Source: a virus
Length of the DNA: 20,054 nucleotides
IMG/VR virus record: IMGVR_UViG_3300009164_000459
Coordinates: 1 to 20,054 of that record
Strand: one strand, 5' to 3'
Under the pieces are notes generated by a model, which searched no databases, was not told the origin of the DNA, and was given only the letters and a program-made list of their open reading frames with translations. Below are positions 1,508 through 16,382 of the stretch, one piece after another; within the stretch, counting starts at the first letter, position 1, and every line of letters starts with the position of its first letter. A program made the translations under genes and the position numbers.

Positions 1508-2008
1508 ATGGCAAATAGAATACAATTACGTAGAGATACAGCAGGAAACTGGCAGAACATTAATCCCATACTAGCCGATGGTGAAATGGGTGTTGAATGG
1601 GATACAGGGTTTATCAAAGTTGGAGATGGCAATACATATTGGAATAACTTGGACTACAACACAGTCAGCAAGGACATTCCACAGAACAATGTCAACGTTA
1701 ACAACGACTATCTTCTAACATTGTCTGATCGTGGTAAACAAGTTTACAGTTCCAATTACTCAAATTATATACTTGTTCCAACAAATGCCACTGTGGCATT
1801 TCCCATTGGCAGCACCATCACAATCATAACCAACGAATCCAATGGCGGTAGAGTCCGTTCAGATGAAGAAGACAACCCACGTATTATTGTTCCTGGAGTG
1901 GCTTATAATACCAGTGGCTACGATTTGCCTGCAGGCAGCATGGCAGCATTGATCAAAGTAGGTACTAATTTATGGTATCTAAGTGGGTACGGAATTACAC
2001 AGGACTAA
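1508..2008 (+). CDS. Small fibre protein: Mtd-N-like module plus C-terminal domain
   Basis: A 166-residue protein, probably a small fibre or fibre-attachment protein. Residues 1-48 match the N-terminal module seen in phage tropism-determinant and fibre proteins: IQLRRDTAGNW, then GEMGVEWDTG and KVGDGNTYWNNL. Residues about 66-166 form a second domain with DYLLTLSDRGKQVY, PTNATVAFPIGS and a final LWYL strand. Both ends resemble the two ends of the 715-residue protein at 4998, which carries about 550 extra residues between them. The start at 1508 is preceded by GGAG at 1496-1499 and follows the upstream stop by three bases, so it is translated from the same mRNA. It could be an independent subunit or a short paralogue of the larger fibre. 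Family membership rests on motif recognition only. Confidence 0.75.
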   Translation: MANRIQLRRDTAGNWQNINPILADGEMGVEWDTGFIKVGDGNTYWNNLDYNTVSKDIPQNNVNVNNDYLLTLSDRGKQVYSSNYSNYILVPTNATVAFPIGSTITIITNESNGGRVRSDEEDNPRIIVPGVAYNTSGYDLPAGSMAALIKVGTNLWYLSGYGITQD

Positions 2009-2011
2009 TTA

Positions 2012-4939
2012 ATGAGCATTATACAAGGGTTCATCGGTGCAGTATCTAATACCGTAAAGTACGAAATCGTACCAAACTATACCTCAATTGACGAAGGTGG
2101 CACCAGCAGTTCGCAAACAGTTACCTATACCATTACCACAGGCGGTGTTGCTGATGGTACCACATTGTACTGGAGCAACGCAGGTACTACCATTGCCGCA
2201 GACCTTGGTGGTTCGGCTCAGGGCTCAGTGGCCATTAGTGGAGGCACTGCAACTTTCTCTCTAACAGCTACAACAGACAACACAACTGAAGGTTCAGAAA
2301 CAATAATCATTGAACTGTATAAAGATGTAGGTCGAACACAGTTAGTAGCCACAGCGGCCACGGTCACAGTTGGCGACACTAGTTTAGATCCCCCTGTTCC
2401 AGGTAGCGGCTTGTTTGTAGCAAGCAACAATACTTCGTTGAAAATTGGCGACACTTATTGGACCATAAACAGTTATGCCGTCCTTGGCAACGTTAATGCT
2501 GGAACTGCGATTATCCTTAGAGATGCATCGAACAACAGTTATAATACTACAGTTCATGACTATGCCAATGGTACCACATTTAATGTGAATAAAGTAACTG
2601 GCATGCCACAACCTATATTAGGTTGGGAGTGGAGTTTAGATGCAGCTTTTTGGTGGCCTATTGCCAGCTCTTCAGAGCCCGAACTAACAAACACTCCATG
2701 GAACTTAGGCTCAACCTGGACCATCGAATTCTGGATGAGAGCCAATGGTGTATCGTCATCCCAGCAAGGTCTAGTCTGTCAGGACGGTTGGTTTGGTAAT
2801 TTACAAGGCGGTAATAGAGACAACGCTATACTTGTTGCCCTTGTTGGCGGCGATCTATCGGTTGGTTTGACCAACGGATTCGCTAATAATTATTATACAG
2901 AACCTGCACCAGGAGTATGGACACACGTTGCAGTGGTTAACACAGCAGGCACAATCAAGACTTTCTACAACGGCGTTGAACAAACCAAACGTGGATATAG
3001 TGAATCGGGCTCAGCATCATACACAAACAATTATATGCCTTTATACATAGGCCGTCTTGGTGGAGGATACGGTGGCTGGTTTGATGGAAAGATTACCAAT
3101 GTACGCATAACCAATACAGCAGTATATAGTGGTAATTTTGCATCTCCAATACTACCAACACGTATTAACGGAAATACCAAATTGTTATGGACACCAACAC
3201 AATACAACTTGGCCGTTGACAGTGGAGATTATGCTACTGCTATAATCAATAATAGTGTTACCTACAGCACTAGTTATCCTATTGCTAGATACGACTTTGG
3301 AACTGTTCCTACTAGCATTAACGAAGGCAGCGCAGGCACATTTAATTTTATAACCGTGGCAGTACCTGACACCACACTGTACTGGGAAACTCTTAATATA
3401 TCTACAACTAATGCTGACCTTAGTGCATTGTCGGGATCATTCGCCTTGGTCAACAGTTCAGGTTCATTTAGTGTAACTCCTACAGCAGACTTTACCACTG
3501 AAGGCAGCGAATCATTTGCTGTGACTGTTAGAACCGGAGCAAGCTACACAGGAACTGTGGTAGCAACTTGCCCTCCAGTTACGGTCAACGACACTAGTAT
3601 AACTCCTACAATACATGGTAGCGTGACAGTTGGCAACGAATCTACAAAAAAATATGCGGTAGTTGCTAGTGCAGGAACTTATGATATCATGTCAGGTCCG
3701 GATGCACTTGGAAATCGCTACGATGTAGGCAGTGGTTTTATTAACTCATTAGCATTTGCTCCTGATGGCATAATTGAAACCATAACTCCAGGTTGGACTG
3801 TAAGGTTTAATAACGGAGACACCCGTACTATTACATCTATTAATAATTTTGAGGGTACTTATGGATTGGTACTTGACAGCCAGTTTACCTACACAGCTGG
3901 TGATGTGTTTCCACTCACTCTCAAGAGTCCCGACTATGTGAATCGTCCATGGTATCTTGGCAATACATGGACCTTAGAATGGTGGCAAAAGGCTAACGTA
4001 TCTACAGCTTCAAGTGGACTTCTTACTGTCATGTGTCAAAGAGACAGTGCCAATGCCATTGACGTATATTATCTAGGTGGTAACTTGGGACTTGCAAATA
4101 CTAGTGTTGGCATAAGTGAACCCACACCAGGAGTATGGACACACGTGGCCATAGTTAGCGATGCTGGAACTGTAACAGTTTATTACAACGGTGTTTCACA
4201 ATACAGTGGAATGAGAAACGTTACATTCACTGATTCAACACGTGATTTGTTCATTGGACGCCGTCAAGGTGATTTCCAATACTTTAACGGAAAACTTACT
4301 AACGTGCGTATAACAAATACCAAGGTCTATACAGGTGCATTTGTGCCTGCGGTGTTGCCACTCAAGGTGTCTGGAACCAAGCTGTTGTGGACACCAACTA
4401 ACTACAGTATAAACACTGACGCTAGCGATATAGCTGCTACTATAACTAGTTACAACGGTATGGCATACGATTCAGATTACCCCAACGAGTTTGCCTACGA
4501 AGCCATACAAGTGGGCGGTGGCATACTTACCATGACCAAGAGCATCAACGGACTGAGTGTGCAGGCAGCGGCAACTAACTTTGACGGTTCGCCAGCAGCA
4601 GGTAGTTATATCAGCATTGACGGAACCATTGTTGCTTCTGACATACTAACTGGTGTAGGACAGGACATGACACGTGGGCATACCATGGTTGTGGTACGCA
4701 AGGAAACCAATACCATTGAAAGCATCAATACCTATGATACCTGGGAGACGCCTACATCAATTGAGGCTCCACTGGCCGCAGTTACAGCAGGACGTATTGT
4801 AATCATAGTTAGTTACGATGCCACAGCCTGTACAGCAACTATGCGAAATACCCTGGTAAACAGCTACGGTGCTACAGACACCACTTCTACCTGGAATTCA
4901 AACCGCAGATCGCACCTGTTTATTGGGACTAAACGATGA
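2012..4939 (+). CDS. Modular tail fibre: 2 x (Calx-beta-like + LamG-like) + FAM3/ILEI-like C-terminus
   Basis: A 975-residue putative receptor-binding or adhesion protein with an internal duplication. Residues ~20-124 form a Calx-beta-like domain (SIDEGG ... TTEGSETI ... VTVGDTS). Residues ~228-415 form a concanavalin/LamG-like domain (WNLGSTWTIEFWMRA, GVWTHVAVVNTAGTIKTFYNG, KITNVRITNTAVYSG, LLWTPTQYN). The pair repeats at ~428-530 (SINEGSAG ... TTEGSESF ... VTVNDTS) and ~645-800 (WYLGNTWTLEWWQKA, GVWTHVAIVSDAGTVTVYYNG, KLTNVRITNTKVYTG, LLWTPTNYS). The last ~150 residues (RGHTMVVVRKETNTI ... VIIVSYDATA ... RSHLFIGTKR) look like the FAM3/ILEI fold domain. LamG-like and ILEI-like domains in other proteins often bind carbohydrate, so recognition of host surface glycans is a reasonable inference. 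ATG is three bases after the previous stop; AGGA near 2000 can serve as the ribosome-binding site. Confidence 0.8.
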   Translation: MSIIQGFIGAVSNTVKYEIVPNYTSIDEGGTSSSQTVTYTITTGGVADGTTLYWSNAGTTIAADLGGSAQGSVAISGGTATFSLTATTDNTTEGSETIIIELYKDVGRTQLVATAATVTVGDTSLDPPVPGSGLFVASNNTSLKIGDTYWTINSYAVLGNVNAGTAIILRDASNNSYNTTVHDYANGTTFNVNKVTGMPQPILGWEWSLDAAFWWPIASSSEPELTNTPWNLGSTWTIEFWMRANGVSSSQQGLVCQDGWFGNLQGGNRDNAILVALVGGDLSVGLTNGFANNYYTEPAPGVWTHVAVVNTAGTIKTFYNGVEQTKRGYSESGSASYTNNYMPLYIGRLGGGYGGWFDGKITNVRITNTAVYSGNFASPILPTRINGNTKLLWTPTQYNLAVDSGDYATAIINNSVTYSTSYPIARYDFGTVPTSINEGSAGTFNFITVAVPDTTLYWETLNISTTNADLSALSGSFALVNSSGSFSVTPTADFTTEGSESFAVTVRTGASYTGTVVATCPPVTVNDTSITPTIHGSVTVGNESTKKYAVVASAGTYDIMSGPDALGNRYDVGSGFINSLAFAPDGIIETITPGWTVRFNNGDTRTITSINNFEGTYGLVLDSQFTYTAGDVFPLTLKSPDYVNRPWYLGNTWTLEWWQKANVSTASSGLLTVMCQRDSANAIDVYYLGGNLGLANTSVGISEPTPGVWTHVAIVSDAGTVTVYYNGVSQYSGMRNVTFTDSTRDLFIGRRQGDFQYFNGKLTNVRITNTKVYTGAFVPAVLPLKVSGTKLLWTPTNYSINTDASDIAATITSYNGMAYDSDYPNEFAYEAIQVGGGILTMTKSINGLSVQAAATNFDGSPAAGSYISIDGTIVASDILTGVGQDMTRGHTMVVVRKETNTIESINTYDTWETPTSIEAPLAAVTAGRIVIIVSYDATACTATMRNTLVNSYGATDTTSTWNSNRRSHLFIGTKR

Positions 4940-4997: not shown

Positions 4998-7145
4998 ATG
5001 GCGACAAAAATACAATTTAGACGCGACACAGCCAGCAATTGGTCCAGCACAAATCCTGTACTAAACCAAGGCGAACCTGGGTTTGAAACCGACACTGGCA
5101 AACTCAAAATTGGCAACGGAAGCACTAACTGGAACGGTTTACCCTACGGTGACGGCATAGTTGGCGGTGATGGCGAAATTGCCATTGGCTACCAAGCTGG
5201 CATGACCAGTCAGAGTTGCGCCGCTGTTGCAATTGGATGTCAAGCTGGCAAAACCAACCAAAGCTGTCAAGCAGTGGCAATTGGTTATCGTGCTGGACAA
5301 ACTAGCCAGGATAGCGGATCAGTTGCTGTTGGTGAATACGCTGGCGAATGCAACCAAGGAACTCACTCAGTTGCTATTGGATCTAATGCTGGCGAATGCT
5401 GTCAAAGCTATGTTGCCACCGCAGTTGGACGCTCAGCAGGCGCTTGCAGCCAAGGAACAGGTGCTACAGCCATTGGACACATCGCAGGCTATTGCAATCA
5501 AGGTTATCATGCCACAGCAGTTGGCCGCAAAGCAGGTCAGTATTGCCAAGAACAATATAGTGTTGCCATTGGCGCAGAAGCTGGTCAATGTTGCCAACGT
5601 GAATACAGTGTGGCTGTTGGATACCGTGCAGGTAACTGTGATCAAGGTCGTAGCCCAGGATGGGGAGAGGGTGGTGCTATTGCTATTGGTGCTTATGCCG
5701 GCGAATGCTGTCAAGAATATCATGCTGTTGCTATTGGACGTGATGCTGGCCAATGCGATCAAGGATTTAGTGCTGTAGCAGTGGGTCGTGCCGCTGGTAA
5801 TTGTTGTCAAGGACACGGTGCCGTGGCAGTGGGTAAAAATGCAGGTTATAACTGCCAAGGTCCCAACGCAGTGGCCATTGGTAACTTTGCAGGTCGCTAC
5901 AGCCAAAACTGTGAAGCAGTGGCCATTGGTTATCAAGCAGCCGAATGCTGCCAGAGTTGTAATGCAATCGCAATTGGTGCTTACGCTGGTCAGTATTACC
6001 AACGCTGTGGTGCAATAGCCATTGGTGAATATGCAGGTCAAGGCTGTTGCTGTTGCTCTTGTTATGCTCAAGGTCGTAACTCCGTAGCTATTGGATCCGA
6101 TGCTGGTAATCGAAGTCAGAGTTATGTGGCTGTGGCAATAGGTCGTGCCGCTGGCTACCGTTGCCAAGATACTGGTGCTACTGCTGTTGGACACATTGCA
6201 GGCTACGAATGCCAAGGATATCATGCCACAGCAGTTGGACGTAAAGCAGGACAGTATTTCCAACACCAGTATGCAGTTGCAATTGGTGCAGAAGCTGGAC
6301 GCTATAGCCAGTGTAATGAAGCTGTTGCCATTGGATACCGTGCTGGTGAAAACTGCCAGTCAATAGGTGCAATTGCTATTGGTGCATACGCAGGGCAGGG
6401 TGATGTCTGCTCTTGCAGTGGCAGTGGAACCGGCTATAGTCAAGATTCATGTGGTACGCAACAACAGTACGCTGTTGCAGTTGGTTTTAGTGCAGGTAAT
6501 TATTTACAAGGTCAAAGCGCAGTTGCTATTGGGCACGACGCAGGTAATAGGACTCAAGGCCAGTATGCTGTAGCTATTGGTTATCAAGCTGGTTTTGGAA
6601 ATACTTGCTGTAGCTCACCACAGGGTAACTACTCAGTTGCTATTGGTTACCGAGCTGGCTATCTAAGTCAGGTTGCAAACAGTATTGCAATCAATGCCAG
6701 CATCGATTCATTGAATCCAGGCGAAGCAGGTTTGTACATCAATCCTGTACGTGAAGACACAGGCAACACTGAATACTCAGTTTACTACAACGATACAACC
6801 AAAGAACTAACATACACAGTTCCGGTTGCACTTCAGTTGCCACAGAATCTGCAAGATGGTAACGGTGATTATACATTGGTATTAGGTGACGCTGGTAAAC
6901 ACATTTATAAAACAGGCACTGGCGGAGTCAAGATTCCAACCAATGCTGCCGTAGCTTTACCAATTGGCAGTGTAGTTACCCTAGTTACAGGTAGTACAAA
7001 CTCAACGACTATTACAGCAGTTGACAGTGGAGCAACTACACTTATACTAAGCAAGTTTGGGTCCGACGCTAGCATCAATGTTCCAGTAGACACTTATGTC
7101 ACAATGCTTAAAATTGACGCAAATCGCTGGATGATCCAGACCTAA
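4998..7145 (+). CDS. Cysteine-rich beta-roll tail fibre (YadA-head-like 16-residue repeats)
   Basis: A 715-residue putative fibre. Residues 1-50 are the Mtd-N-like module (IQFRRDTASNW ... GEPGFETDTGKLKIGNGSTNWNGL). Residues 59-560 hold about 29 repeats with the pattern x-(A/S)-V-A-(I/V)-G-x-x-A-G-x-x-x-Q-x-x, similar to the AVAIG repeats of YadA-type trimeric adhesin heads, which form left-handed beta-rolls. Cysteines are abundant: I count 37, all inside the repeat region, mostly at repeat positions 12-13 next to the near-invariant Gln. Loops of 6-18 extra residues interrupt units 10, 18, 25 and 28; unit 18 contains CCCC followed by SC. Residues 561-606 (SIAIN ... GLYINPVRED ... YYNDTTKELTY) match a capping segment common after such repeats. 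Residues 624-715 resemble the C-terminus of the 166-residue protein at 1508. The late box at 4968 and GGAG at 4984 fit expression as a late virion gene. Trimeric assembly is inferred from the YadA analogy. Confidence 0.85.
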   Translation: MATKIQFRRDTASNWSSTNPVLNQGEPGFETDTGKLKIGNGSTNWNGLPYGDGIVGGDGEIAIGYQAGMTSQSCAAVAIGCQAGKTNQSCQAVAIGYRAGQTSQDSGSVAVGEYAGECNQGTHSVAIGSNAGECCQSYVATAVGRSAGACSQGTGATAIGHIAGYCNQGYHATAVGRKAGQYCQEQYSVAIGAEAGQCCQREYSVAVGYRAGNCDQGRSPGWGEGGAIAIGAYAGECCQEYHAVAIGRDAGQCDQGFSAVAVGRAAGNCCQGHGAVAVGKNAGYNCQGPNAVAIGNFAGRYSQNCEAVAIGYQAAECCQSCNAIAIGAYAGQYYQRCGAIAIGEYAGQGCCCCSCYAQGRNSVAIGSDAGNRSQSYVAVAIGRAAGYRCQDTGATAVGHIAGYECQGYHATAVGRKAGQYFQHQYAVAIGAEAGRYSQCNEAVAIGYRAGENCQSIGAIAIGAYAGQGDVCSCSGSGTGYSQDSCGTQQQYAVAVGFSAGNYLQGQSAVAIGHDAGNRTQGQYAVAIGYQAGFGNTCCSSPQGNYSVAIGYRAGYLSQVANSIAINASIDSLNPGEAGLYINPVREDTGNTEYSVYYNDTTKELTYTVPVALQLPQNLQDGNGDYTLVLGDAGKHIYKTGTGGVKIPTNAAVALPIGSVVTLVTGSTNSTTITAVDSGATTLILSKFGSDASINVPVDTYVTMLKIDANRWMIQT
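5172..6677 (+). repeat. ~29 in-frame 48-bp coding repeats (16-residue beta-roll units)
   Basis: The repeat region of the fibre gene. Most units are exactly 16 codons; unit 10 (residues 203-225), unit 18 (338-360), unit 25 (457-490) and unit 28 (523-544) are longer. Codons differ freely between units while the protein pattern is kept, so the array is old and under protein-level selection rather than freshly amplified. Units 4-11 and 18-25 correspond one to one, which shows a past block duplication. Confidence 0.85.
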
Positions 7146-7176: not shown

Positions 7177-7380
7177 ATGCCACAATTTAATATCACAGCA
7201 ACTTCAGTTAAAAAAGAAGGAATGACTGTTAGCAATACAGACAAAAAACGTCACCCAAGCCCAGCTGCTTTTGACACACAAGAATTAGCACAAGCCAATG
7301 CTGACAAGTATGCTAAGAGTCTATGTCACGAAGACCACGAAGGTGTTTGGGACTGGGTTGGTCACGCTACCCCAGTTTAA
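7177..7380 (+). CDS. Small unidentified protein (67 aa)
   Basis: I do not recognise a named family. The product is 67 residues, soluble, without a signal peptide or membrane segment. It has a Lys-rich stretch (KKEGMTVSNTDKKRHPSP), a short helix-prone middle (TQELAQANADKYAKSL) and a His/Trp-rich end (CHEDHEGVWDWVGHATPV). It is believable as a gene because it has its own late-promoter-like box at 7149, a good GAGGAAA ribosome-binding site nine bases before ATG, and a stop two bases before the stop of the convergent gene, with no slack on either side. Its position inside the fibre block suggests late expression; its role is unknown. Confidence 0.7.
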   Translation: MPQFNITATSVKKEGMTVSNTDKKRHPSPAAFDTQELAQANADKYAKSLCHEDHEGVWDWVGHATPV

Positions 7381-7382
7381 TC

Positions 7383-7625
7383 TCAAGTTGCATTAATAAT
7401 GACCGTAGCAGTTTCGGCTTCTACGGTCATATAACCTTCGCAAGAAATATTCCAGTCGTCCCCGCCTGATCCATTTCCAGTCACTTCACTGTACGTGGGC
7501 ACATTCATTTTAACATTTTTAGCTAGGTATTCTTTGCCATTTTCAAATACTCGCCAAACGTGATCCATTGAACCACGACCATTTTGACCTCTTGATTTGT
7601 TAAATCTTATGTGATACTTGTTCAT
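7383..7625 (-). CDS. Small unidentified protein (80 aa), paired with the oxygenase gene
   Basis: An 80-residue protein of unknown function. It starts MNKYHIRFNKSRGQ, has DHVWRVFENGKEYLAKN in the middle and a DDWNISCEGYMTVE strand region near the end; it reads like a compact beta-rich domain. I have the impression of similar short proteins in marine T4-like phages but cannot name a family. Its ATG overlaps the stop of the leftward oxygenase gene by four bases, so the two are probably translationally coupled and expressed together. It converges on the small gene ending at 7380. Its last codons contain a perfect 10-base inverted repeat (7399-7430). Confidence 0.7.
   Translation of the reverse strand: MNKYHIRFNKSRGQNGRGSMDHVWRVFENGKEYLAKNVKMNVPTYSEVTGNGSGGDDWNISCEGYMTVEAETATVIINAT
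7399..7430. repeat. Perfect 10-bp inverted repeat at a convergent gene junction
   Basis: ATGACCGTAG (7399-7408) pairs perfectly with CTACGGTCAT (7421-7430) across a 12-base loop. It lies within the last codons of the leftward 80-residue gene and 19 bases past the stop of the rightward gene ending at 7380, so transcripts from both sides would form the stem. There is no T-run on either side, so it may act as a pause, an RNA 3'-end stabiliser or a weak bidirectional terminator. Confidence 0.45.
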
Positions 7626-8284
7626 AGTATAACTGTTTCTGATTGGGTGTTTCTTGTAGTTTGTGAAACTTTTGCTGCTGGTGTAACAGTAAGATTATAG
7701 TGTACTAAACGTGTGGGTTCGTCTATGGGATTACGAGTAACACTATGTGGCAACCAAGAATTAATAAAGTACATTGAGCCAGGTTTTGGATTAAACAATA
7801 CCTTAGAACTTGCGTCAGTTATTTTATTTAAATCAGATTCTGGTAGTATAATCTGCATACGCCCTGGACGTGGGTCATGCAACATAACTTGACATCCACC
7901 TTCAGGAGCATCGATAAAATAAAATCCTGTTATTTGCGCTCCGTGATTGTGTATATGTTCTTCATGTCCGTTCCATTTGCGATGTTCTTGACACCACATT
8001 TCTTGAAAATAAACATCAAAGTTTTTCATGTCATGACCTTGGTCTTTTAATATAGCCCAAGAAGCCTCTGCAATAAAACTGGTAAATTCAGCAAGTTCTG
8101 GCTCATGAAAAAAGCCTTCAGTTTGTATAGGATGCATTGGGTTTATTGGCGGTTGATTAGTATCCATTCTTTGTTTTAAATATTTGTTGGATACGTTTTT
8201 AACCGCTTCTAAAAACTCAGGTTTTTCAATTACATAAACTGGACTGGCAAAATATTGAAGTGGGGTAAGTGTATTATTTGTCAT
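7622..8284 (-). CDS. Putative 2-oxoglutarate/Fe(II)-dependent oxygenase
   Basis: A 220-residue protein resembling the 2OG-Fe(II) oxygenase family common in marine T4-like phages (PF13759-like). These enzymes use 2-oxoglutarate, O2 and ferrous iron to hydroxylate a substrate. Visible motifs are WNGHEEHIHNHGAQITGFYFI (residues 104-124), with H110/H112 the likely proximal iron ligands, and NSWLPHSVTRN (175-185) with the distal ligand H180 and R184 placed to bind 2-oxoglutarate. The N-terminal LQYFASPVYVIEKPEF is also typical. The substrate is unknown: a phage virion protein, host protein or metabolite are all possible. It is transcribed leftward against the flanking fibre genes. The sequence before ATG has only GAAG as a poor ribosome-binding site, and a late-like box lies just 8 bases upstream. 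Confidence 0.75.
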   Translation of the reverse strand: MTNNTLTPLQYFASPVYVIEKPEFLEAVKNVSNKYLKQRMDTNQPPINPMHPIQTEGFFHEPELAEFTSFIAEASWAILKDQGHDMKNFDVYFQEMWCQEHRKWNGHEEHIHNHGAQITGFYFIDAPEGGCQVMLHDPRPGRMQIILPESDLNKITDASSKVLFNPKPGSMYFINSWLPHSVTRNPIDEPTRLVHYNLTVTPAAKVSQTTRNTQSETVIL

Positions 8285-15147: not shown

Positions 15148-16062
15148 ATGAAACAATTGTGGGTAGAAAAGTATCGTCCGGCTAGAATTGACGGATATGT
15201 GTTTAGAGATGCACATCAAAAGTCACAAGTGCAACGCTGGATTAAAGAGGGAACAATTCCTCATTTGTTGTTTAGCGGTAACGCTGGTATTGGTAAGACA
15301 ACACTGGCAAAGATTTTGCTCAATGAGTTGAACATAAACGACTTAGACGTTTTAGAAATTAACGCTAGTCGTGAAAACGATGTGGACACTGTGCGTACTA
15401 AGATTATCAACTTTGTACAAATGATTCCGTTTGGTGCATTCAAAGTTGTAATGTTGGATGAGGCAGATTATTTGAGTCCAAACGCACAGGCGGCATTGCG
15501 CGGCGTGATGGAAACGTATGCAACAACAAGTCGCTTTATTTTAACGTGTAACTATCCCAATCGCATTATTCCAGCATTGCACAGTCGTTGCCAAGGATTC
15601 CACGTTGAGAAAGTGGATCAGCTTGCAGTGTTTGAACGAGTTGAAACGATTCTTAAAGCAGAAAGTATTGTATATGATAATGAGACACTGGCAAATTATG
15701 TGGCCGCAACTTATCCAGATTTACGCAAGTGTATCAATTCAGTACAAATGAACAGTATGGATGGTAAATTACATCGTCCAGAAAAAAGCGATGCTGGCGA
15801 AGCAGACTACAAATTTGAGATGGTTGAGCTATTTAAGGCTGGTAAAATTGCAGATGCACGTAAACTAGTGTGCAGTCAAGCACGTCCGGAGGAAATGGAA
15901 GACATTTATCGCTGGTTGTATGATAACATCACTATCTTTGGTGATGATGCAAAACAAGAGAAAGCAATTCTTATTATTAAACAAGGTCTTGTTGATCATA
16001 CACTAGTAAGTGATGTTGAAATTAACTTGGCCGCAACATTGATTAGATTGGCGCATCTATGA
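15148..16062 (+). CDS. 44: Sliding-clamp loader ATPase subunit (T4 gp44 type)
   Basis: A 304-residue AAA+ clamp-loader subunit, which uses ATP to open and load the DNA sliding clamp at primer ends in phage replication. It begins [18 protein letters not shown], the standard clamp-loader N-terminus. Walker A is [10 protein letters not shown] (residues 43-52), Walker B is VVMLDEAD (100-107), sensor 1 falls in LTCNYPNR (N135), and the SRC arginine-finger motif is HSRCQG (145-150). T4 gp44 is of similar size. I use ATG 15148; the in-frame GTG at 15142 overlaps the AAGGAG ribosome-binding site and is not a credible start. In T4 the small subunit gene 62 follows; here a ferredoxin does, joined by ATGA. 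The gene heads an early unit with a sigma70 promoter. Confidence 0.93.
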
Positions 16063-16382
16063 CATATTTGGTGACTGAGAACTGCATCAAGTGCAAGCAT
16101 ACTGATTGTGTAGAAGTATGTCCAGTTGATTGTTTTTATGAAGGTCCTAACTTTTTAGCAATTAATCCAGACGAATGTATCGACTGTGGAGTATGTGTTC
16201 CCGAATGTCCCGTTGATGCAATTGTGCCTGACAATGATGTCGATACCAATGTAGTGTTTTGGACTGAGCTTAACGGACGGTTGAGTAAAAAGTGGCCGGT
16301 TATTACTAAACGTAAGGCAGCATTACCTGATGCTGAAGAGTGGAACGGCAAACCAAACAAACTTGATTTACTTGAAGAATGA
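16059..16382 (+). CDS. fdxA: 7Fe ferredoxin, FdxA / Azotobacter FdI type
   Basis: A 107-residue [3Fe-4S][4Fe-4S] ferredoxin, a soluble low-potential electron carrier. Cysteines are at 9, 12, 17, 21, 25, 40, 43, 46 and 50. These are the same positions as in Azotobacter vinelandii ferredoxin I counted with its Met: 9, 17 and 50 for the 3Fe cluster; 21, 40, 43 and 46 for the 4Fe cluster; 12 and 25 not ligands. The stretches [26 protein letters not shown] and [15 protein letters not shown], and the C-terminal [10 protein letters not shown], are close to that protein as I remember it. The full length of the family is kept. It overlaps the clamp loader and the next gene by ATGA, so it is an integrated phage gene and not a random insertion. 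The redox partner is unknown; a role in host electron supply (for example for nucleotide reduction or respiration) is inference. Confidence 0.9.

Follow-up and report, generated by a model that had tools for sequence, protein, structure and literature searches.

A cysteine-rich beta-roll tail fiber and an adjoining oxygenase gene pair in aquatic phages

The window analyzed here, a 20,054-nucleotide stretch of viral DNA (IMG/VR record IMGVR_UViG_3300009164_000459, positions 1 to 20,054), encodes a long cysteine-rich fiber protein; its parts and two related or adjoining genes are as follows.

1508..2008 (+): roll-less, cysteine-free 166-aa paralog with the N- and C-terminal domains of the fiber
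2012-4939 (+): 975-aa protein with LamG-like lectin and ILEI domains, adjoining the fiber gene
4998..7145 (+): cysteine-rich fiber ORF, 715 aa, stop codon included in the span
5010..5126 (+): Mtd_N domain (PF18454), residues 5-43, E=3.8e-18, 65.6 bits against a cut-off of 26.3
5178..6683 (+): predicted left-handed beta-roll, residues 61-562, 29 coils, containing all 37 cysteines
5610..5678 (+): 23-aa unit with the insertion GRSPGWGEGG
6015..6083 (+): 23-aa unit with a CCCC..C insertion loop, residues 340-362
6372..6473 (+): 34-aa unit with a cysteine-rich insertion (CSC..C)
6570..6635 (+): 22-aa unit with a CC insertion
6684..7142 (+): C-terminal domain, residues 563-715, cysteine-free and conserved among orthologs

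Mtd_N, which passes the curated PF18454 cut-off, is the sole Pfam domain found in the 715-aa fiber, and the PHROGs matches are to tail-fiber and tail-spike families, in line with the original prediction of a phage tail fiber. The Mtd_N domain is the probable virion-attachment end of the protein, and the C-terminal domain the probable distal tip. Unlike the trimeric autotransporter adhesins, this phage fiber has no membrane anchor barrel at its C-terminus, Pfam finding only Mtd_N and the neighborhood consisting of phage genes. With regard to the comparison with Mtd and DGR systems, a reverse transcriptase is absent among the annotated proteins of the window, which is a genome fragment. The adjoining 975-aa protein is probably another adhesin, and the 166-aa paralog represents a natural roll-free version of the fiber.

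The beta-roll shaft

The motif [VIT]A[IV]G was used to divide the fiber into coil units. The roll found in this way lies within 6 nt of the span previously proposed (5172-6677), and the proposed count of about 29 repeats stands: 25 of the 29 coils are exactly 16 aa long and four carry insertions that extend them to 23, 23, 34 and 22 aa. The unit with the CCCC..C motif, which had been singled out as a possible metal site, is among the latter.

Because the whole-chain single-sequence AlphaFold model was poor (pLDDT 42.6), a nine-coil segment (window positions 5223-5654) was modeled from an in-register alignment with 46 other roll segments. In the resulting model (pLDDT 94.2, pTM 0.87), coil positions 2-4 and approximately 12-13 form strands. 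Comparison with VIA-align yielded Z of about 17.5 against YadA-type heads (17.6 for BpaC, 7o23; 17.4 for YadA, 1p9h; 17.0 for BoaA, 3s6l), with 125-126 of the 144 residues aligned at an rmsd of 1.7-2.4 A, and lower values of 11-12 for left-handed helix acyltransferases. This number of aligned residues approximates 9 x 14, which would follow from two extra residues per fiber coil. The roll is shared by many viral proteins in BFVD (TM up to 0.97 to the nine-coil model), and the PDB matches from Foldseek by itself were weak. At the level of the model, the YadA-like left-handed parallel beta-roll that had been proposed for the shaft is supported.

The fiber shares with the YadA-type heads the AVAIG core, the invariant glycine, the small residues inside and the location of insertions at the same coil edge; it differs from them in its 16-residue coils (14-15 in the YadA-type heads), the invariant Gln13 and the cysteine columns. 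Published YadA-type coils consist of 14 residues, or 15 in UspA1, with the motif GxNSVAIGAxSxAx and a rise of 4.8 A per coil, and take up insertions after position 14, ahead of position 1 of the following coil (PMC9543794). When aligned by motif, the fiber coils have their extra residues and cysteine columns at this insertion edge, and the cysteine side chains are predicted to be located at the surface side of the roll. The fiber is probably a homotrimer, and its architecture would comprise the Mtd_N attachment domain, a 29-coil roll shaft of about 14 nm at a rise of 4.8 A, and the C-terminal tip.

Cysteine columns on a common viral scaffold

A recount agrees with the original prediction that all 37 cysteines fall within the repeats and none in the N- or C-terminal parts. 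Cysteine accounts for 37 of the 503 repeat residues (7.4%) compared to 9 of 3196 (0.28%) when six further ORFs of structural type from the window are pooled (binomial p about 2e-39). The coils were numbered A1-V2-A3-I4-G5-x6-x7-A8-G9-x10-x11-x12-Q13, and homologs with the same architecture were collected from IMG/VR (L001, L002, which is partial, L003, L004, L063, L064/L065 and L067). Across 150 regular coils of eight cysteine-rich homologs, the window included, there are 61 cysteines at position 11, 63 at 12, 16 at 14 and 19 at 15, with minor contributions at positions 7 (6), 6 (2) and 8 (1); elsewhere there are none, including the equally variable positions 10 and 16. Gln13 is present in 147 of these 150 coils. 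This is the placement originally described as positions 12-13 beside Gln14, the numbering being offset by one.

The same position-specific counting, suggested earlier as a check on viral protein sets, gives values near zero for ordinary rolls: in 294 coils, mostly from one general viral-contig roll search, position 11 is mostly Thr (0.3% Cys) and position 12 mostly Asn, Ser or Thr (0% Cys). The 16-residue scaffold itself, with the repeat AxAIGxxAGxxxQG, is common in chlorovirus, virophage and phage proteins (BFVD and viral contigs) and is normally cysteine-free (about 0.1%); nearly all of the sampled viral-contig rolls are cysteine-free, with T11/N12 at the cysteine columns, in contrast to the fiber. 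The 16-residue coil length, which had been contrasted with the 14-residue YadA-type repeats, is therefore no peculiarity of this fiber among viral proteins. The cysteine content of individual arrays is either 0-0.8% or 4.8-9.5%, the sole intermediate value, 2.3%, belonging to L051, which has 17-residue repeats. By these measures, the cysteine-rich 16-residue rolls form a separate class, in which cysteine is an add-on to the common scaffold, with T11/N12 replaced by C/C. When composition is masked, the arrays of the Mtd_N clade cluster together; the cysteine-rich arrays L023, L035 and L038, for their part, lie closest to cysteine-poor arrays.

Two possible sources of the cysteines were rejected. 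Both TGC and TGT codons are used in the repeats, which excludes a copied single DNA word and with it a DNA-repeat artifact; there is only one family of long internal DNA duplications in the fiber gene. Phage-wide or habitat-wide cysteine richness is incompatible with the 0-0.4% cysteine of the other structural-type ORFs in the window and with the similar content of the remaining ORFs in loci with and without a linked oxygenase (see below).

A pattern scan of bacterial genomes returned 119 stretches, with zero roll arrays, by filter, among the loci kept. The largest cysteine-rich 16-residue roll seen is a 1936-aa protein with 76 cysteines, encoded near the start of loci L285 and L288, where it adjoins the oxygenase pair. 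The L051 protein (ORF 2 onward) is a 1626-aa array of VFIGxxAG repeats with 82 cysteines spread over other coil positions.

The oxygenase gene pair and its association with cysteine-rich adhesins

Downstream of the fiber gene lies a small cassette; a further gene of interest is encoded at a distance.

7177..7380 (+): small conserved gene, 67 aa, between the fiber and the cassette in the Mtd_N-roll clade
7383..7625 (-): 80-aa protein MNKYxIRFNKSRGQ..., a new conserved family, with a 4-nt overlap between its start and the oxygenase stop
7622..8284 (-): 2OG-Fe(II) oxygenase, PF13759, 220 aa, ending in ...ETVIL, 48.9 bits against a cut-off of 27
16059-16382 (+): ferredoxin, NCBIfam FdxA_Protbact, 165.7 bits against a cut-off of 135, with 9 cysteines in 107 aa

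The strongest functional clue at this locus is the linkage of the oxygenase and the 80-aa gene, neither of which figures in the original prediction. The enzyme is assigned to PF13759 (2OG-FeII_Oxy_5) by the curated Pfam cut-off and scores 55.6 bits against the NCBIfam subfamily TIGR02466, below the cut-off of 62.5; among the compared enzymes (A3), the histidines that are candidates for the iron site are H110, which is nearly invariant, and the invariant H112 and H180. The 80-aa family had no match in Pfam or NCBIfam, nor a significant one in PHROGs; a search with it retrieved at least 565 loci in IMG/VR, and it is named here as a new conserved family. Both genes are present in 76 of the 80 loci kept from this search, and the 4-nt overlap recurs in 43 of 55 measurable pairs. 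The enzyme ends in [VIL][VIL] in 65 of 67 distinct sequences (AEIV, TVI, IIV and VIL in the window and L241-L320), typically after a Pro/Ala-rich linker, and this conserved aliphatic tail may be a docking tag.

With the oxygenase as the only query, the loci retrieved fell into six distinct groups: cysteine-rich rolls occur in two of them and cysteine-rich Gly-rich proteins of an unrelated kind in three; the sixth (32% identity) contains no cysteine-rich neighbor, and none was found next to the distant PF13759 enzymes of L236/237. In L001 (3074-3664, minus strand) and L004 (2957-3547, minus strand), a PP-loop gene, QueC-like by eye, is located between the oxygenase and the 80-aa gene. In the cultured Pelagibacter phages HTVC033P (L239) and HTVC023P (L240), the only such enzymes are distant ones: two 2OG oxygenase genes lie side by side, next to genes for Gly-rich proteins that contain 1.2-1.8% cysteine, and a gene for a putative ferrochelatase is also present. 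The expectation that the 80-aa protein would be found in cultured cyanophages was dropped, the search match being only in the uncultured MW202545, where no cysteine-rich adhesin is encoded within the 11.6 kb read.

In the comparisons that follow, all loci are metagenomic fragments with ORFs called by simple rules, "unlinked" denotes absence of the enzyme from the fetched flank, and the loci are not phylogenetically independent. PF13759 is present in 14 of 14 records with cysteine-rich 16-residue rolls compared to 3 of 10 with ordinary rolls, and in these three the enzyme does not adjoin the roll. All 16 rolls encoded at most 6 kb from the enzyme contain at least 2% cysteine (median 4.9%), as opposed to 2 of 26 rolls without the enzyme (median 0.2%; p=3e-7). 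Because some roll loci had been fetched with cysteine-bearing patterns, the test was rerun on the loci from the general viral-roll search only, where 3 of 3 linked and 1 of 25 unlinked rolls are cysteine-rich (p=0.001).

An independent test is provided by Gly-rich adhesins, a second fold, which were fetched by a cysteine-free query; those classified as unlinked had a searched flank of 2.5 kb or more on either side. The median cysteine content is 2.31% in the 24 linked adhesins, 17 of which reach 2%, and 0.35% in the 22 unlinked ones, none of which does (p=4e-8); no such difference is seen for the remaining ORFs of these loci (p=0.29). Of the 24 linked adhesins, 23 contain more cysteine than their closest unlinked relative. 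The two classes are mixed over sequence space, the nearest relative being of the same class for 30 of the 46 adhesins. Cysteine is the only residue strongly enriched in linked adhesins of both folds; the other shifts are an increase in Arg and His with a decrease in Thr in the rolls, and a decrease in Asp and Glu in the Gly-rich adhesins. There are exceptions: in the jumbo phage L077 (354-kb contig), the enzyme is 18 kb from the cysteine-rich roll fiber; L051 has no linked PF13759, its contig containing only a PF13640 gene, at a distance of over 11 kb from the fiber; and several enzyme-linked Gly-rich adhesins have ordinary cysteine levels (e.g. 0.4% in L363). Altogether, cysteine-rich adhesins of two unrelated folds adjoin the oxygenase and the 80-aa gene in many aquatic phages.

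Possible roles of the cysteines

The 2OG-Fe(II) oxygenases are among the genes that are common in aquatic phages but lack an explanation, and they are usually filed as metabolic helpers. In the literature they figure as auxiliary metabolic genes that may modulate the metabolism of 2-oxoglutarate and nitrogen (PMC3037559, PMC4164917). The enzyme described here belongs to the same superfamily, but its PF13759 subgroup is linked to adhesin genes as well as to the 80-aa partner, which points to modification of virion proteins over 2-oxoglutarate metabolism. The closest solved relatives, the TIGR02466/PF13759 structures 3bvc and 2rg4, are annotated as uncharacterized proteins only.

The oxygenase and its partner gene are linked to several types of adhesin, the fiber among them. 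In the fiber, cysteines in place of Thr11/Asn12, together with those at 14 and 15, would create a dense thiol band along the roll. We propose that the oxygenase, aided by the 80-aa protein, modifies the adhesin inside the infected cell ahead of virion assembly. The simplest target would be the cysteines or residues beside them, and the outcome would be virions whose surface thiol chemistry is altered in favor of stability or attachment to the host. That the oxygenase modifies, or works with, the cysteine-rich adhesin is, in our assessment, only slightly less probable than the converse. The identification of cysteine as the target is a guess, appreciably less secure, because no substrate assignment was found for this subfamily, none of the papers listed for PF13759 and TIGR02466 having its substrate as the subject of the title. 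Equally guarded is the wider reading, in which the two proteins would be a dedicated machine that changes adhesin cysteines post-translationally across unrelated folds and gives a large part of aquatic phages a modified sulfur surface; such an altered surface would presumably serve attachment. The enzyme pair of the window clade is on the strand opposite the fiber and so is not co-transcribed with it, which counts against this proposal, as do the exceptions given above and the distant PF13759 enzymes of L236/237. The modeled roll fold, together with the cysteine columns, the genetic linkage and the association with cysteine in two adhesin folds, suggests a widespread system that modifies or depends on virion-surface thiols. 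The connection of one PF13759 subgroup with cysteine-rich adhesins of two folds provides a specific, testable substrate hypothesis. No earlier report of a phage adhesin oxygenase or a cysteine-rich fiber was found in a search of mostly non-subscription papers, and, if the hypothesis is correct, this would be a chemistry of phage-host contact unseen in model phages.

A rather unlikely alternative is that disulfides within or between coils, or among the three chains, stiffen the fiber extracellularly, the oxygenase serving something else in the host-recognition locus. Phages Milano and 7-7-1 likewise contain unusually cysteine-rich virion proteins, with extensive disulfide networks (PMC10811340, PMC12796354), and same-position cysteine neighbors in adjacent coils are slightly more frequent in the rolls than in within-protein shuffles (90 compared to 78, p=0.03). 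However, the cysteine pairs of Milano and 7-7-1 are specific and extend across sheath, tube, baseplate and capsid, whereas the cysteines of the window phage are confined to the adhesin and their sites turn over: between the window and L003, about half differ, being exchanged with residues such as Y, N, S, D, T or G. Furthermore, the totals in intact homologs are odd (37, 43, 31 and 41), pooled adjacent-coil tests detect weak coupling at positions 14 and 15 and none for 11 or 12, and the linkage to the oxygenase in two folds is left unexplained. The density of cysteines, then, is kept between phages, and their exact placement and pairs are not. Free variation at these positions among homologs, named beforehand as evidence against the ladder, is accordingly seen for single sites but not for the density of the columns. 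Because density is kept while individual sites turn over, a fixed pattern of disulfide pairs appears unlikely, and the disulfide stapling that had been suggested as one possibility finds no support in this form; opportunistic disulfides may be compatible with the turnover.

Shared ancestry or habitat, whereby related aquatic phages would carry the oxygenase pair and cysteine-rich adhesins for unrelated reasons, we consider improbable. Many of the loci come from related samples, and both this and the fragmentary contigs and cysteine-bearing search patterns noted above would favor such an explanation; yet the association is found in two unrelated adhesin folds with several N-terminal domains, persists with the cysteine-free query and in the general viral-roll subset, coexists with remaining genes that are not cysteine-rich, and is accompanied by mixed linkage classes among similar adhesins.

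Least probable of all is that the cysteines bind Fe, Zn or Cu along the roll, as a thiol analog of the HxH sites of T4 gp37, and that the fiber is recognized by the host or delivers metal: the dense CC, CxxC and CCCC..C clusters resemble the repeated candidate ligands of iron-binding fibers, HxH iron sites in marine phage fibers and the Ferrojan horse idea offer a precedent (PMC11705849), an iron enzyme adjoins the fiber locus and a ferredoxin gene is present in the window, but no HxH motif was found in the 715-aa fiber, the candidate ligands being thiols with a putative metal role, the ligand geometry is not kept among orthologs, and the cysteines are scattered in the Gly-rich relatives. The FdxA_Protbact match of the ferredoxin suggests that this phage-encoded protein is of proteobacterial origin.
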